Assembly (NCBI RefSeq): GCF_009208075.1
Contig: NZ_WFKJ01000002.1
Coordinates: 62,001 to 126,000, forward strand
Length of the DNA stretch: 64,000 nucleotides
Reading direction: 5' to 3'
DNA from: Poseidonibacter ostreae
Lineage (GTDB): Bacteria > Campylobacterota > Campylobacteria > Campylobacterales > Arcobacteraceae
Part shown: positions 8,649 to 59,523 of the stretch, one piece after another
Numbering within the stretch: the first letter of the stretch is position 1
How the letters are laid out: each line of letters opens with the position of its first letter
Notes under the pieces: generated by a model
What the model saw: only the letters and a program-made list of their open reading frames with translations
What the model was told of the DNA's origin: nothing
Databases searched by the model: none
Made by a program: the position numbers and the translations under genes

Positions 8649-9317
8649 ATGTTGGCTGCCCTAGATACAATAAATAATATAAGTTTTTTTGATACTTTAA
8701 ATGAGCAACAAAAAGAACAAATTGCTTCAATATCACTAGTGAACAAATACCCAAAAGACAGTATTCTTTACTATGAAAGTGAAACAAGTAAAAACCTTCT
8801 TTTCTTAGTTTCAGGATTGTTAAAAATATTTAAACTAGATAAATTTGAGAATGAAATTTTTCTTTATCATATATATAATAATTCTATGATTTCAGAGCTT
8901 TCTTCTATAGAACAAAATGATATATACTGTTTTTCTAATGCTGAATTTATTGAAGATTCAGAAGTTCTATCAATAAATTTTGAGAAATTTCATGAACTAT
9001 TCTTATCAAAAAATATTTTAACAATTGAACTAATGGAAATACTTTTAAAAAAGACACATCAATTACAATGTATTGTAAATAGAGAACTTGTATTTGATGC
9101 AACTGCAAAAGTAGCTTTTATGATAAATCAAGATTTAGAGATGTTTAATAAACTAAAAAGACAAGAAGTATCTTTTATGTTACATATACAACCTGAAACT
9201 TTATCAAGAGTTTTAAAAAAGCTATCAAGAAATGGAAGTATTGAAATAGATAATAGTGAAGTAAAAATAAAAGATAAAACAGCTTTAGAGTATGTTTTTA
9301 AAGGAGTTGGGGTATGA
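8649..9317 (+). CDS. Crp/Fnr-family transcriptional regulator 1
   Basis: Regulator of 222 residues with an N-terminal cyclic-nucleotide-type beta-barrel (about 12-120), a dimerisation helix (about 121-150) and a C-terminal winged helix. The recognition helix reads QPETLSRVLKKLSR with Glu183, Ser186 and Arg187, the E-x-x-S-R pattern FNR uses to read TTGAT half-sites. The N-terminal cysteines that hold the FNR [4Fe-4S] cluster are missing, so it resembles DNR/NssR-type nitrogen-oxide sensors. Its stop overlaps the start of a NarX-like sensor gene, and the nor operon follows. It is a candidate activator of the FNR-like boxes described here. Confidence 0.85.
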   Translation: MLAALDTINNISFFDTLNEQQKEQIASISLVNKYPKDSILYYESETSKNLLFLVSGLLKIFKLDKFENEIFLYHIYNNSMISELSSIEQNDIYCFSNAEFIEDSEVLSINFEKFHELFLSKNILTIELMEILLKKTHQLQCIVNRELVFDATAKVAFMINQDLEMFNKLKRQEVSFMLHIQPETLSRVLKKLSRNGSIEIDNSEVKIKDKTALEYVFKGVGV

Positions 9318-10318
9318 GTGTGCAAACCAATACTATTAGTAGAAAAATAAAATTAATTGGTATTTTATTTATAGTTTTAATGACAAGTATCATTCTTACA
9401 ACAATTTATTTAAATAATAAAAATAAAAAAGATGCCTTAGTGATTAATATTGCAGGAAAAGAGAGGATGTTAACTCAAAAAATTTCAAAAAATATTTTTT
9501 ATTTATATCATAATAGTGATAATACATTATTTACAGAATTAGACTCTGCTACTATTGAGTTTATATATAATTTAAACTCTTTAAAAGATGGAAATACACT
9601 AACAGGAATAAACAAAGCACCTACAGATTTAATTGCAAAGCAAATATCAAAAGTTGATATTTTATGGAGTACTTTTTATGCAAATATAAATGACTTTAGA
9701 GAAAATATTGTAAAAAGAAATCCAGATAATGAAGTAGTTTTAAAAAATATTGTGAACTCTGTTCATAATACAAATATTACACTGTTAAATGAAGTTGATA
9801 AATTAGTTTTCATGTATACATTACATAGTGAAAAGAAAGCAGAATACATCAAGTATATACAATATATATTTGGGTTAATGATAATTTCACTTATGTTTTA
9901 TAGTTTTTCACAGTTAAAAGCAATGGAAGATAATGTAAAGAAATTCTTTGAATTCTCAAAAAAATTAGCACAAACTGATGATAACAACCATTTAGAACCT
10001 ATCAAAATTGAAGCAGAAAAAGAGATAATAGAAGCCTCTGATACGATAAATTGTTTCATTAGCAAGTTAAATTCAGCCATGGATTACTCATCAAGTGCTA
10101 TTGAACAATCACAAAATGCATCTATTAAACTTGAAGAAATTACTGATGAGTTTAGTAAAACGATTAATGATTTAAAATATTCAAGTGAAATTTCAAATAA
10201 ACTTGATAAAACAGAAAATATTGTAATTCAATCTCATGAAGACCTTATAAATACAACAAAGAAACTACAGCTATTAAAAAATGAGCTAGACAAGCTTTTA
10301 GAAAGTTGTAAAATATAA
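9314..10318 (+). CDS. NarX/PilJ-type membrane sensor without output domain
   Basis: A 334-residue inner-membrane protein with TM segments at about 12-33 and 184-203 around a periplasmic helical domain. The first periplasmic segment (VINIAGKERMLTQKISKNIFYL, about 42-63) matches the P-box region of the NarX/PilJ N-terminal family, which binds nitrate or nitrite in NarX. The cytoplasmic tail (205-334) is a coiled coil with no kinase, chemotaxis or GGDEF domain. It is translationally coupled (ATGA) to the upstream Crp/Fnr gene, suggesting it modulates that regulator. The domain call is firm; the ligand is inferred from family and context. Confidence 0.75.
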   Translation: MSVQTNTISRKIKLIGILFIVLMTSIILTTIYLNNKNKKDALVINIAGKERMLTQKISKNIFYLYHNSDNTLFTELDSATIEFIYNLNSLKDGNTLTGINKAPTDLIAKQISKVDILWSTFYANINDFRENIVKRNPDNEVVLKNIVNSVHNTNITLLNEVDKLVFMYTLHSEKKAEYIKYIQYIFGLMIISLMFYSFSQLKAMEDNVKKFFEFSKKLAQTDDNNHLEPIKIEAEKEIIEASDTINCFISKLNSAMDYSSSAIEQSQNASIKLEEITDEFSKTINDLKYSSEISNKLDKTENIVIQSHEDLINTTKKLQLLKNELDKLLESCKI

Positions 10319-10432: not shown

Positions 10433-10499
10433 AAAATTGACATATATCCTTTCAAAATTGACATATATCATTTTTTTTAATCTCTCATTAGACTAAAAT
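10433..10499 (+). promoter_or_regulatory. nor operon promoter with two FNR/DNR-like boxes
   Basis: The identical 16-bp element AAAATTGACATATATC occurs at 10433-10448 and 10454-10469, 21 bp apart (two helical turns). The proximal 14-bp box TTGACATATATCAT spans 10458-10471, and a TAAAAT -10 begins exactly 36 bp after its first base (10494-10499). This centres the boxes at -41.5 and -62.5 from a predicted start at 10506, the class II activation position for FNR-family proteins. Confidence 0.7.
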
Positions 10500-17463: not shown

Positions 17464-17505
17464 TTGATAGCAGTCAAGTATTCCAATTATCATTTATGTT
17501 AACAT
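17464..17505 (+). promoter_or_regulatory. FNR/DNR-like box and -10 of the heme d1 operon
   Basis: TTGATAGCAGTCAA at 17464-17477 is a near-perfect FNR-type dyad. A TAACAT hexamer (first, second and last bases conserved) starts 36 bp later at 17500, centring the box at -41.5 from a predicted start at 17512. The first gene begins at 17534. Confidence 0.7.
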
Positions 17506-30792: not shown

Positions 30793-31374
30793 GTGTCTAA
30801 AGAGTTTAATGTTGGAAAAAAAATCAAAGATTTACGAATACAAAAAAATATGAATGCAAAAGAGTTAGCACATATGTCTAAAATCTCTGTTGGTATGTTA
30901 TCTCAATTAGAAAATGGTTCAACACAAGGTTCAGTTGAAACCTTACGAAAAATTGCTAAAGTATTAGATACAACTTTAGCACAATTATTTACTGATGAAG
31001 AAACAGTAAATACGCCATTTGTAAATGAAGAATCAAAATATATTGTAAAAAAAGCTAATAGAAAAAAGATATCTTTTCCTGATCCTTTATACAACTGTGA
31101 ACTTTTAGTACCAAATTTACAAGGTGCTATAGAGTTTGTATTAGTAAGGCTAGGTCCAAATAGACTTAGTGATGATATTTTACCTCACTCTAAAGGTGGA
31201 GAAGAGTGTAATTATGTTTTAGATGGAGAAATAGTAGTTACTCTTGAAAATCAAGAGTTTACACTTCAAAAAGGAGACAGTATTAGATTTAAACCTGAAA
31301 CTCCTCATAAAATTGAAAATAGAAGCCTTAAAAAAGCTTCTTATATTTCAGCTATTACTCCTGTTTCTTTTTAA
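30793..31374 (+). CDS. XRE-family regulator with C-terminal cupin domain
   Basis: A 193-residue regulator with an N-terminal helix-turn-helix (NVGKKIKDLRIQKNMNAKELAHMSKISVGMLSQLENGS, about 5-43) and a cupin sensor domain (about 105-190). The cupin holds HSKGGEECNYVLDGEIVVTLE and GDSIRFKPETPHKIEN. Such proteins often bind small metabolites and repress amino-acid or polyamine genes. The start is GTG, with GGGGAGAAAG upstream. Divergent lysE and nearby sdaA are likely targets. Its stop overlaps the convergent TrpD2-like gene by 4 bp. Confidence 0.88.
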   Translation: MSKEFNVGKKIKDLRIQKNMNAKELAHMSKISVGMLSQLENGSTQGSVETLRKIAKVLDTTLAQLFTDEETVNTPFVNEESKYIVKKANRKKISFPDPLYNCELLVPNLQGAIEFVLVRLGPNRLSDDILPHSKGGEECNYVLDGEIVVTLENQEFTLQKGDSIRFKPETPHKIENRSLKKASYISAITPVSF

Positions 31375-32264
31375 TCTACCATTTCATAAGCTTCTTTAAT
31401 ATCGTTTGATTTTTTTGAAGCTATTAAAAACATCGCAGCATTTAATTTAGCAAGTTTTTCTAAGTCATTACTTGGATTTTTTGTCATATTTAAAGAATCT
31501 TCTTTACTTATAACTGTAGTTGATTTATTATAGTTTATTCCAAAATATTCAGGGTCAATTTTATGTTCAGATATTACTCCATCTTTATTTAACCAATATT
31601 TACACTTTGAAAAGATTTCAGGTGTTCCTTCATTTCCTTTTACAATTACTAAGTGTTCATAGTTTTTACCAAAAAGTTCATTATATTTTACAACATAAGG
31701 CTTATGAAATGCTGCGTTAATAGCATATTTTGAATTTCCTGGGTTTAACAGTTTTTCAACTGTATTAAATGCTGTTCTTAAACCTAAAATATTTCTAATT
31801 TTTGTAAGTTCGCTTAGTTCTTTAAAATAATCTGCTCTATCAAAATAATGAATATTATCATCAAACTTTATATTTGCATTTAATTCTTTTAAAGTTAAAC
31901 CTTTTTTTGCAGGTTGTAACTCATCTCCACTTACAACAATATTTAAATCAAATTTCTTTAAATATTTTGCAACTAAAGGTAATATATATGGATTATCAGC
32001 TTTTCCATCAAAGGGATAACCTAACTCAATTGAGTTTTCTACTGTTTGTCTTTTTATATATTTATCACAAACATTAAATGTAGTTTTTAATTCTTCTATA
32101 GTTTCAAGTCTAACTCTCCAACCTAATAAAAACGCAGCAATCTGCTCAGAATAAACACTTTGATTAAGAATACATTCCATCGCATCTATCATTTCATTTT
32201 CTTTTAACTCTCTATTTGATTTAGGTCCAGTTCCAACTGCTCTAATATATTCATGAAAAGCCAT
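31371..32264 (-). CDS. TrpD2/YbiB-like glycosyltransferase-family-3 protein (paralogue 2)
   Basis: A 297-residue paralogue of the gene at 7655-8572, matching along its whole length: RAVGTGPKSNRELKENEMIDA, AAFLLGWRVRLET, IRNILGLRTAFNTVEKLLNPG and IVKGNEGTPEIF. Like the first copy it lacks the PRPP-binding GTGGD loop. It is divergent from napA and shares a 273-bp upstream region containing a palindromic FNR-like box, so it might be co-regulated, though no convincing minus-strand -10 at the right spacing is seen. Function not established. Confidence 0.7.
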   Translation of the reverse strand: MAFHEYIRAVGTGPKSNRELKENEMIDAMECILNQSVYSEQIAAFLLGWRVRLETIEELKTTFNVCDKYIKRQTVENSIELGYPFDGKADNPYILPLVAKYLKKFDLNIVVSGDELQPAKKGLTLKELNANIKFDDNIHYFDRADYFKELSELTKIRNILGLRTAFNTVEKLLNPGNSKYAINAAFHKPYVVKYNELFGKNYEHLVIVKGNEGTPEIFSKCKYWLNKDGVISEHKIDPEYFGINYNKSTTVISKEDSLNMTKNPSNDLEKLAKLNAAMFLIASKKSNDIKEAYEMVD

Positions 32265-32460
32265 TTTTTTTCCTTAAATTATTTATAAAGAAAATAATAT
32301 CTTAATATGAATCCTAGACTGATGATTTAAATCAAGTTAATAAAACATCATTATTATCATATTTGTAAGTTTCAAGAACAAAATAATTTTTTTATAGGAA
32401 CCTTATAGTCGCTAATTGAGAAAATAGGACAAAAAGTATCTTAATTTAAACTTAAGTTAC

Positions 32461-32502
32461 TTGACTTTAGTCAATGGCTAATCTTAAACTAAGTGGTATA
32501 AT
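32461..32502 (+). promoter_or_regulatory. FNR/DNR-like box and -10 of the nap operon
   Basis: TTGACTTTAGTCAA (32461-32474) is a perfect dyad. TATAAT begins exactly 36 bp after it at 32497-32502. The predicted start at 32509 puts the box centre at -41.5 and gives a 29-nt leader to the napA ATG at 32538. Confidence 0.8.
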
Positions 32503-39985: not shown

Positions 39986-40375
39986 ATGAAAAATAAATTT
40001 ATAGTTATAGCTTTATTAGCTCTCTTCTTTACAAACTTAAATGCTTATTCAACACAAATAAAAGCTGCACATGCAATTGGTATTTTTCATGAAAATGGAA
40101 AAGGTGAAAATATACAGCATGTAAGAAAAACCAAAGATGATTATAATGGTATATGCTTTAGTAAAATAGTAGTCTTTGGAAAACTAAATAATATCATGCC
40201 AAAAGTTAAAATAGGCAACTCACTAGGAAAATTTATAAAAGAAATACCAATTTATAATAAGCATAAAATTAAAATTGCAAAAGAGATAACTTTCAAGCAT
40301 TATAATGTAACAAAAGGCTATATTGAAGTTAGAGTTGATAAAAAACTGTATGATTCAAAAGTTTTTGTAAAATAA
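39986..40375 (+). CDS. Small secreted hypothetical protein
   Basis: A 129-residue protein with a signal peptide (1-20, cleavage after LNA) and a basic, lysine-rich mature part, including a repeated-looking HKIKIAKEITFKHYNV stretch and a single Cys. It lies 35 bp after the PAS gene on the same strand and is the last gene before the RNA-rich intergenic region. Not recognised. It could belong to the nap transcript, since no terminator is seen before it. Confidence 0.65.
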   Translation: MKNKFIVIALLALFFTNLNAYSTQIKAAHAIGIFHENGKGENIQHVRKTKDDYNGICFSKIVVFGKLNNIMPKVKIGNSLGKFIKEIPIYNKHKIKIAKEITFKHYNVTKGYIEVRVDKKLYDSKVFVK

Positions 40376-40383
40376 ATAGAATA

Positions 40384-40425
40384 TTGATTTATATCATTAA
40401 TTTACTTTTTTAATCTATGTATAAT
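40384..40425 (+). promoter_or_regulatory. FNR/DNR-like box and perfect -10 with no gene downstream
   Basis: TTGATTTATATCAT (40384-40397) is followed at exactly 36 bp by TATAAT (40420-40425), the same layout as the nap, nor and heme d1 promoters. It points rightward into a stretch with no plus-strand open frame, so the transcript starting near 40432 is probably noncoding. Confidence 0.7.
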
Positions 40426-40431
40426 TACAAC

Positions 40432-40510
40432 ATAATAAGAAGCTTTACCTCCTCCCCTCCTTTTAAAATAAAAGTCAAATATAAGATTTTTCACGGTAAA
40501 GCTTCTTTTA
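40432..40510 (+). ncRNA. Candidate nitrogen-oxide-responsive small RNA with anti-Shine-Dalgarno loop
   Basis: Predicted transcript of about 80 nt from the FNR-like promoter. A perfect 13-bp stem is formed by AAGAAGCTTTACC (40437-40449) and GGTAAAGCTTCTT (40495-40507), followed by a TTTTA tail that could end transcription. The 45-nt loop starts with the C-rich run TCCTCCCCTCC, complementary to Shine-Dalgarno sequences, and has a small inner hairpin (CTTTT 40460-40464 with AAAAG 40470-40474). Eight bases, CCCTCCTT (40455-40462), match the napG ribosome binding site AAGGAGGG exactly. No open reading frame fits. The RNA family was not recognised. Confidence 0.6.
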
Positions 40511-40637
40511 TACTTCCAATTAAATAATCCTCCAATTTATATTTTTTAAAATTCTTTATTAATTTCATTATAATTCTTATTATAATCTATAAATTTCAAA
40601 AAAAAATCCTTTCGTAGCATTAAAATAGCATTTTTTA

Positions 40638-40646
40638 TGGTATACT
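40638..40646 (+). promoter_or_regulatory. Extended -10 promoter of the second small RNA
   Basis: TGG directly before TATACT (40641-40646) gives an extended -10 with a predicted start near 40653. Upstream, TAGCATT occurs twice (40616-40622 and 40626-40632), a 10-bp-spaced repeat. No FNR-like box is found at the -41.5 position, so it is probably controlled differently from the first RNA. Confidence 0.5.
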
Positions 40647-40652
40647 TTTGGC

Positions 40653-40730
40653 AATAGAAGTTTTATCTATTATCTCTCCTTAGTAAAAAATTACGTAGCT
40701 GTAAAATTTTTTCAGGATAAGACTTCTCTT
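40653..40730 (+). ncRNA. Candidate sibling small RNA
   Basis: About 78 nt with the same architecture as the first: AGAAGTTTTATC (40656-40667) pairs with GATAAGACTTCT (40716-40727) to close a 48-nt loop. Compared with the first RNA, two stem pairs change from C-G to T-A and one from T-A to T-G, so pairing is preserved by compensation. The loop carries CTCTCCTT, complementary to AAGGAGAG, and an A/T-rich inner hairpin (about 40685-40712). The 3' T-run is weak, so the transcript may continue to the terminator at 40841-40876. Confidence 0.5.
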
Positions 40731-40762
40731 AATTACTCATTATTGTAAAAAATCGAAATTTT

Positions 40763-40876
40763 TATAATGTTAAAATGATTTTATTTTGAATATATTTAAA
40801 TACTTTTTTAATAAATAAAATCAGAGTGTGCGGACAAAAAAAAAGGATAAGTTAAATAACTTATCCTTTTTTTTTA
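40763..40876 (+). ncRNA. Possible third noncoding transcript ending at the serS terminator
   Basis: TATAAT at 40763-40768 predicts a start near 40775. From there TGATTTTATTT (40776-40786) pairs with AAATAAAATCA (40813-40823), followed by a short GC-containing single strand (GAGTGTGCGGACA) and the strong terminator hairpin at 40845-40866 with a T9 tail. The parts fit a small RNA of about 100 nt, but this region could simply be the serS terminator plus A/T-rich spacer. Confidence 0.35.
40841..40876. terminator. Bidirectional terminator downstream of serS
   Basis: GGATAAGTTA (40845-40854) pairs perfectly with TAACTTATCC (40857-40866), flanked by A9 on the left and T9 on the right. It can terminate serS leftward and any small-RNA transcript rightward. 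Confidence 0.9.
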
Positions 40877-59409: not shown

Positions 59410-59523
59410 CTTAATTAAAACTTAATATATTAGCTTAAATTGTCTAAAAATTACGCAATTTTACAAATAAATTGCAAATGCTATTTTAATGCTATTTAAC
59501 TAGCTTTTTTAAGGAATTTGTAT

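Follow-up and report, generated by a model that had tools for sequence, protein, structure and literature searches.

Two related predicted small RNA genes in Arcobacteraceae carry anti-Shine-Dalgarno loops, and one shares its promoter geometry with denitrification operons

The denitrification region of Poseidonibacter ostreae contained in a 64,000-nt stretch of contig NZ_WFKJ01000002.1 (hereafter the window, whose positions are used throughout) holds two candidate small RNA (sRNA) genes in tandem, RNA-A and RNA-B. Sequence comparisons indicate that they form a conserved pair and belong to a new family, of a functional kind already known, that of sRNAs with an anti-Shine-Dalgarno (anti-SD) sequence. 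We put at roughly 0.7 the probability that RNA-A and RNA-B are trans-acting anti-SD sRNAs forming a new family in Arcobacteraceae, and that RNA-A has joined the denitrification regulon. The basis of this reading is the observed sequence, conservation, covariation, sibling relation and promoter geometry; transcription, signal, Hfq-independent pairing, repression and targets are predicted from them. An initial annotation of the window had proposed RNA-A as a nitrogen-oxide-responsive RNA; its interpretation is partly supported and is right in outline, the function of the RNAs being a prediction.

RNA-A comprises the following elements.

40432..40514, plus strand: RNA-A small RNA, with predicted ends, from fold, conservation and model searches
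40437..40449, plus strand: 5′ stem arm AAGAAGCUUUACC, from the fold and the comparison of five genomes
40495..40507, plus strand: 3′ stem arm GGUAAAGCUUCUU, then UUAUAC, with two compensatory changes across five genomes
40448..40469, plus strand: anti-SD stretch CCUCCUCCCCUCCUUUUAAAAU with the conserved core UCCCCUCCUUUUAAAA, from loop alignment and site counts

The stem is a perfect 13-bp helix that closes a C-rich loop. Its folding energy of −19.2 kcal/mol compares with −5.8 ± 2.1 kcal/mol for 200 shuffled sequences, none of which folded as well (z = −6.34). The C-rich run CCTCCTCCCCTCC begins at 40448, its first two C residues being part of the stem, and it is the sole 13-nt pyrimidine stretch with at least 8 C in the window. 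A whole-genome search found a single copy of RNA-A. Conservation of stem and loop in relatives had been set beforehand as a test of the initial annotation, and both are kept in five of the ten Poseidonibacter genomes (G000, G003, G004, G006 and G009). In these five intact copies the upstream box, the distance from box to −10 element and the loop core UCCCCUCCUUUUAAAA are constant, and two stem pairs have changed on both sides; the exact loop string CCUCCUCCCCUCC highlighted by the initial annotation is not conserved among species. All the elements that it had described, from the box and TATAAT to the 13-bp stem with its C-rich loop, are present at 40384-40512, and the proposal of a separate small-RNA gene is supported. 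Genome G008 (L009, around 1479 to 1515) contains a broken remnant consisting of the 3′ half of RNA-A, fused by a deletion to a truncated copy of the upstream gene for a 129-aa protein.

RNA-B, built on the same plan, lies about 150 bp downstream of RNA-A; its stem AGAAGUUUUAUC/GAUAAGACUUCU closes a loop that contains CUCUCCUUAGU. Overlooked by the initial annotation, it is the more important half of the finding.

40650..40735, plus strand: RNA-B, stem arms 40656-40667 and 40716-40727, with predicted ends, from alignment and model searches
40674..40684, plus strand: RNA-B anti-SD sequence CUCUCCUUAGU, identical in 42 of 42 copies
40615..40632, plus strand: direct repeat TAGCATTAAAATAGCATT of the RNA-B promoter, with an 11-bp period; TAGCA-N6-TAGCA precedes 42 of 42 copies
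40641..40646, plus strand: RNA-B −10 element TATACT, from promoter comparison

We searched 104 Arcobacteraceae genomes with models built from RNA-A, from RNA-B and from the two together. Model R3 detected RNA-B in 10 of 10 Poseidonibacter genomes, 30 of 31 Aliarcobacter genomes and one genome each of two further genera, and RNA-A in five genomes; the sole Aliarcobacter genome lacking RNA-B is 54% complete. RNA-B is located between the 129-aa gene and serS at most loci. Because model R2, built from RNA-B only, recognizes RNA-A at 39 to 46 bits, the two RNAs are siblings, and as RNA-B has a much wider distribution, RNA-A was most likely derived from it. The model search revealed no third copy in the window or in genome G000, and R3 returned no convincing family member outside Arcobacteraceae among 397 genomes sampled from the class. 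Matches of about 31 bits in Campylobacter were rejected as homologues, since most of the recurrent ones examined correspond to the strand opposite a CUAAGGAG ribosome-binding site that precedes a gene.

The family alignment comprises 36 distinct sequences; pairing in its closing helix reaches 98.1%, and 10 of the 13 pairs show double changes. None of 500 shuffles reached any of the measures obtained for the whole 17-pair structure, and slid controls were 43 to 56% paired; the alignment was fitted to the model and is thus biased toward the structure, yet so wide a gap leaves hardly any room for doubt. These data bear on the possibility that there is no RNA gene at all and that the inverted repeat represents a terminator, a palindrome bound by a protein or the decayed remains of a mobile element. 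Long inverted repeats do occur in terminators and at transposon ends. We nevertheless consider this explanation very improbable, given that RNA-A is single-copy, its arms covary as RNA, the 45-nt loop is conserved, serS has a terminator-like repeat of its own (40836-40875) and a separate conserved promoter with −10 element accompanies every RNA copy. A freely changing stem combined with a frozen anti-SD sequence and a frozen promoter is, at the level of sequence, the pattern expected of a base-pairing sRNA gene.

The promoter of RNA-A was compared with others in the window, which was scanned for TTGAY-N4-RTCAW boxes and, downstream of them, for TAnnnT.

40384..40397, plus strand: FNR/CRP-type box TTGATTTATATCAT of RNA-A, centre at 40390.5, 29.5 bp from the −10 element, in five of five RNA-A genomes
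40420..40425, plus strand: RNA-A −10 element TATAAT, reading TATAAT, TATACT or TACAAT in the five genomes
32461..32474, plus strand: nap promoter box TTGACTTTAGTCAA, 29.5 bp to TATAAT, from the window scan
10458..10471, plus strand: nor operon box TTGACATATATCAT, 29.5-bp spacing, from the window scan
17464..17477, plus strand: nir/heme d1 operon box TTGATAGCAGTCAA, 29.5-bp spacing, from the window scan

At all four plus-strand boxes (nor, nir/heme d1, nap and RNA-A), TAnnnT lies exactly 29.5 bp downstream of the box centre. Given the local TAnnnT frequency, this four-out-of-four coincidence has a chance probability of about 8 × 10−5, a value that goes with a degenerate −10 pattern of our own choosing and a spacing first noticed at RNA-A. 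The FNR-family-type promoter described in the initial annotation is borne out by this common distance, and because RNA-A has the same geometry as nor, nir and nap, its control by a CRP/FNR-type denitrification regulator is supported, more strongly than the initial annotation had grounds to say. With a start expected near 40432, the usual 6 to 7 nt after the −10 element, the box would be centred at −41.5, and the promoter would fit the class II architecture of FNR/DNR-type sites, TTGAY-N4-RTCAN at −41.5 together with a −10 element. The strict box TTGATTTAWATCAW is commoner than its reversed control in most Poseidonibacter genomes (8 versus 0 in G000), G002 and G005 being the exceptions. On the minus strand, an FNR-like box, TTGATTTAAATCAT (32322-32335), has TATTAT at 29.5 bp and precedes a gene of the glycosyl-transferase-3 family (31371-32264) that diverges from nap.

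Five CRP/FNR-type candidates are encoded in the genome, of which two lie in the window. No N-terminal cysteine cluster was seen in four of these proteins, read by eye, and the two from the window scored above the cut-off of no NCBIfam FNR model. The predicted regulator of RNA-A would therefore more probably be a nitrogen-oxide sensor of the DNR/Nss kind than an oxygen-sensing FNR. Just upstream of the nor operon (8649-10318), a CRP/FNR-type regulator gene overlaps a PilJ-domain gene that is possibly nitrate-sensor-like, and the two are a candidate denitrification regulator pair. According to a review, Aliarcobacter butzleri has no regulator of the FNR/CRP family (PMC6682613), which would agree with the absence of RNA-A from Aliarcobacter.

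The RNA-B promoter shows a different organization. The distance between its TAGCA repeats and the −10 element differs by about one helical turn between Poseidonibacter and Aliarcobacter, and the promoter is retained also in G002 and G005, where the neighbouring genes differ. The conserved promoters speak to whether each RNA derives by processing from the 3′ end of the 129-aa gene mRNA, or is a cis element, rather than an independently controlled transcript. RNA-A is on the same strand as that gene and starts about 60 nt behind it, as this would require, but a box and −10 element at fixed spacing separate the two in five of five genomes, the RNA-B promoter persists next to other neighbours, and the downstream serS is convergent. 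We hold this explanation to be very improbable.

The denitrification genes of the window comprise norCB, a cytochrome cd1-type gene, heme d1 genes and nap. The latter is followed by a napD-like gene, a PAS gene and the 129-aa gene, then by about 520 bp devoid of a real open frame, and then by the convergent serS. RNA-A had been described as lying directly downstream of nap, which needs correction, as the napD-like, PAS and 129-aa genes intervene between napF and RNA-A. The statement that its region has no open frame was nearly right, except that a mechanical 36-aa frame exists at 40417-40527. This frame begins upstream of the predicted start site of RNA-A and, because of that position and of a loop length that varies by 1 to 2 nt among species, it is non-coding. 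The 129-aa gene (39986-40375), whose product is probably secreted, is the neighbour of RNA-B in most Aliarcobacter and Poseidonibacter genomes; its product matched no Pfam or NCBIfam family.

As in anti-SD trans-acting sRNAs, both RNAs present an exposed, conserved stretch complementary to ribosome-binding sites. The sequences at these sites with which the loops are predicted to pair are UUUAAAAGGA for RNA-A and CUAAGGAGA for RNA-B. The conserved part of RNA-A, UCCUUUUAAA, fits about 20 to 27 ribosome-binding sites per genome, against a few for the reversed control, and the genes with these UUUAAAAGGA sites form a mixed list without a clear theme. The initial annotation had assigned complementarity to ribosome-binding sites to the C-rich loop as such: an anti-SD loop is indeed exposed, with UCCUUUUAAA as the matching part, but the C-rich half is almost partnerless, AAGGAGGG-N(2-10)-ATG occurring twice in five genomes. 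A strong single target of RNA-A was considered and rejected, one-mismatch complements of TTAAAAGGAGGGGA lying mostly inside genes and AAGGAGGG-N-ATG being near-absent. The best RNA-A partner in the window is the PilJ-domain gene directly behind the CRP/FNR-type gene (9314).

For RNA-B, near-perfect complements in the genus are mostly located at ribosome-binding sites of transport and respiratory genes, which, as named by eye, code for TRAP-type binding proteins, a PQQ-type dehydrogenase, a SoxA-like cytochrome and a branched-chain amino acid permease. Its best partners in the window are an ABC permease (26764) and a livK-like binding protein (57279). This predicted target set resembles those of sRNAs that tune nutrient uptake. 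A second exact copy of TAGCATTAAAATAGCATT is found on the minus strand at 59477-59494, about 150 bp upstream of open reading frames of 79 aa and 230 aa and of the livK-like gene. A regulator acting on the RNA-B repeat may also act there, and livK is a predicted RNA-B target as well.

Over 63 genes in the window, the preference of the loops for ribosome-binding over mid-gene positions was matched by 2 of 200 shuffled loops for RNA-A and by 14 of 200 for RNA-B. Several observations weigh against the proposed anti-SD family. The preference of the loops for ribosome-binding sites is modest, and their mean energy on these sites is unexceptional relative to shuffled loops (z = −0.7 for RNA-A and −1.65 for RNA-B). 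No RNA-A target with long, conserved complementarity was found, a consensus scan detected no canonical terminator downstream of either RNA, and RNA-A is absent from half of the genus Poseidonibacter. The target matches fall short of conserved-target proof.

Might the loops have a protein as their partner instead of mRNA, for instance an RNA-binding regulator titrated by their C/U-rich sequence? A large loop, partly conserved beyond the seed, would suit such a role. Yet the invariant part is exactly the anti-SD sequence, the RNA-A loop lacks the GGA expected of a CsrA sponge, and A. butzleri encodes no csrA according to the review cited above (PMC6682613). It is very doubtful that protein binding is the function of the loops.

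The relation between the siblings raises another possibility, that RNA-A acts mainly on RNA-B as an antagonist, sponge or competitor. Their stems are cross-complementary, each RNA-A arm being able to pair with the opposite arm of RNA-B; the genes are adjacent with different promoters, the loops read overlapping sets of ribosome-binding sites, and CJnc190 of Campylobacter jejuni has a known RNA antagonist (PMC8687705). Co-folding of RNA-A with RNA-B, however, gave two separate hairpins at −32.4 kcal/mol, the sum of the single folds, so that a heteroduplex was not favoured over two hairpins and was discarded. Furthermore, the loops are not mutually complementary, and Aliarcobacter and half of Poseidonibacter have RNA-B but no RNA-A. 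We regard such an antagonism as improbable.

If RNA-A and RNA-B are trans-acting anti-SD sRNAs, each would be about 75 to 85 nt long and fold by itself through one 12- to 13-bp stem joining both ends, the U-rich 3′ side of which would probably serve as terminator and shield for the RNA. The stem would display a loop of about 45 nt with the anti-SD sequence in its 5′ part, and this loop would pair with the ribosome-binding sites of selected mRNAs and block their translation, in the manner of RepG, CJnc190 or the NmsR siblings. RNA-B, with its TAGCA direct-repeat promoter, would be the older, general member, from which RNA-A would have arisen within Poseidonibacter, acquiring a different seed. 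A CRP/FNR-type activator bound at −41.5 would turn RNA-A on alongside nap, nir and nor, and RNA-A would lower the translation of a set of mRNAs during nitrogen-oxide respiration. Translation of selected mRNAs is thus probably switched off under these conditions. More tentatively, and with somewhat less than even odds, RNA-B, present in four genera, was duplicated in Poseidonibacter, and the new seed and nitrogen-oxide-regulator promoter of RNA-A created a second, translational arm of denitrification.

The initial annotation had known of no described RNA of this design in Arcobacteraceae, and we likewise found no matching family in Rfam or the searched literature. Rfam 15 gave no family match at gathering or relaxed thresholds, the best sub-threshold hit being RF02877 (17.6 bits for a cut-off of 52, E = 2.5). 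That family contains NmsRA and NmsRB (NgncR_162/163) of Neisseria, tandem siblings in one intergenic region whose anti-SD regions act on metabolic mRNAs (PMC5362039). RNA-A and RNA-B share this tandem arrangement of related sRNAs within a single intergenic region, but they have a single closing stem, whereas the NmsR siblings have three stem-loops (SL), with anti-SD sequences between SL1 and SL2 and in SL2, are about 70% identical and are under RelA control. CJnc190 comes from the same phylum without Hfq or ProQ; unlike the present family, it matures through RNase III processing of a longer precursor and has an antisense RNA as its partner. RepG of Helicobacter pylori resembles this family by its C/U-rich hairpin loop and G-rich mRNA leader target, but RNA-A and RNA-B are closed entirely by one stem and their seed reads AAGGAG-type sites. 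The models identified no homologue in Campylobacter; the CJnc190 and RepG sequences were not directly compared with RNA-A and RNA-B. Rhizobial hairpins with CCUCCUCCC are also named 'cuckoo' RNAs. In these SmelA075/SmelA099-type hairpins of Rhizobiales, loops with CCUCCUCCC are read as anti-SD sequences (PMC3927594). They consist of three or four small hairpins whose loops resemble one another, whereas here one stem carries a 45-nt loop and exact CCUCCUCCC is unconserved.

FnrS and AniS are sRNAs under anaerobic or denitrification control. Others linked to nitrate or NO respiration are PaiI of Pseudomonas (PMC5703892) and a denitrification sRNA (PMC6686037). All four are tied to regulators of nitrate or NO respiration, as is predicted for RNA-A, and no sequence relation was found (no Rfam match). 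Literature searches turned up no anaerobically or denitrification-controlled sRNA in Campylobacterota. For Arcobacter sp. L, Stav et al. 2019 (PMC6429828) examined 38 intergenic regions, most of the remaining ones being left unnamed, and RNA-B could be among the latter.

The sRNAs of Campylobacter and Helicobacter are reported to be hardly conserved between species (PMC3847290). The family described here would be an sRNA family that can be followed across more than 40 species of Campylobacterota. Its seed is invariant, its stem covaries and its promoters are fixed, and in one lineage-specific copy, RNA-A, both input and seed have changed. We know of no earlier sRNA of Campylobacterota under CRP/FNR-family control, and RNA-A, if confirmed, would be the first. 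The family would offer a tractable case, in bacteria believed to have neither Hfq nor ProQ, of an sRNA that is copied and then rewired into the regulon of a respiratory pathway. The genus Aliarcobacter, in which RNA-B is widespread, includes food-borne human pathogens. The finding predicts a translational layer in the denitrification of marine Campylobacterota.
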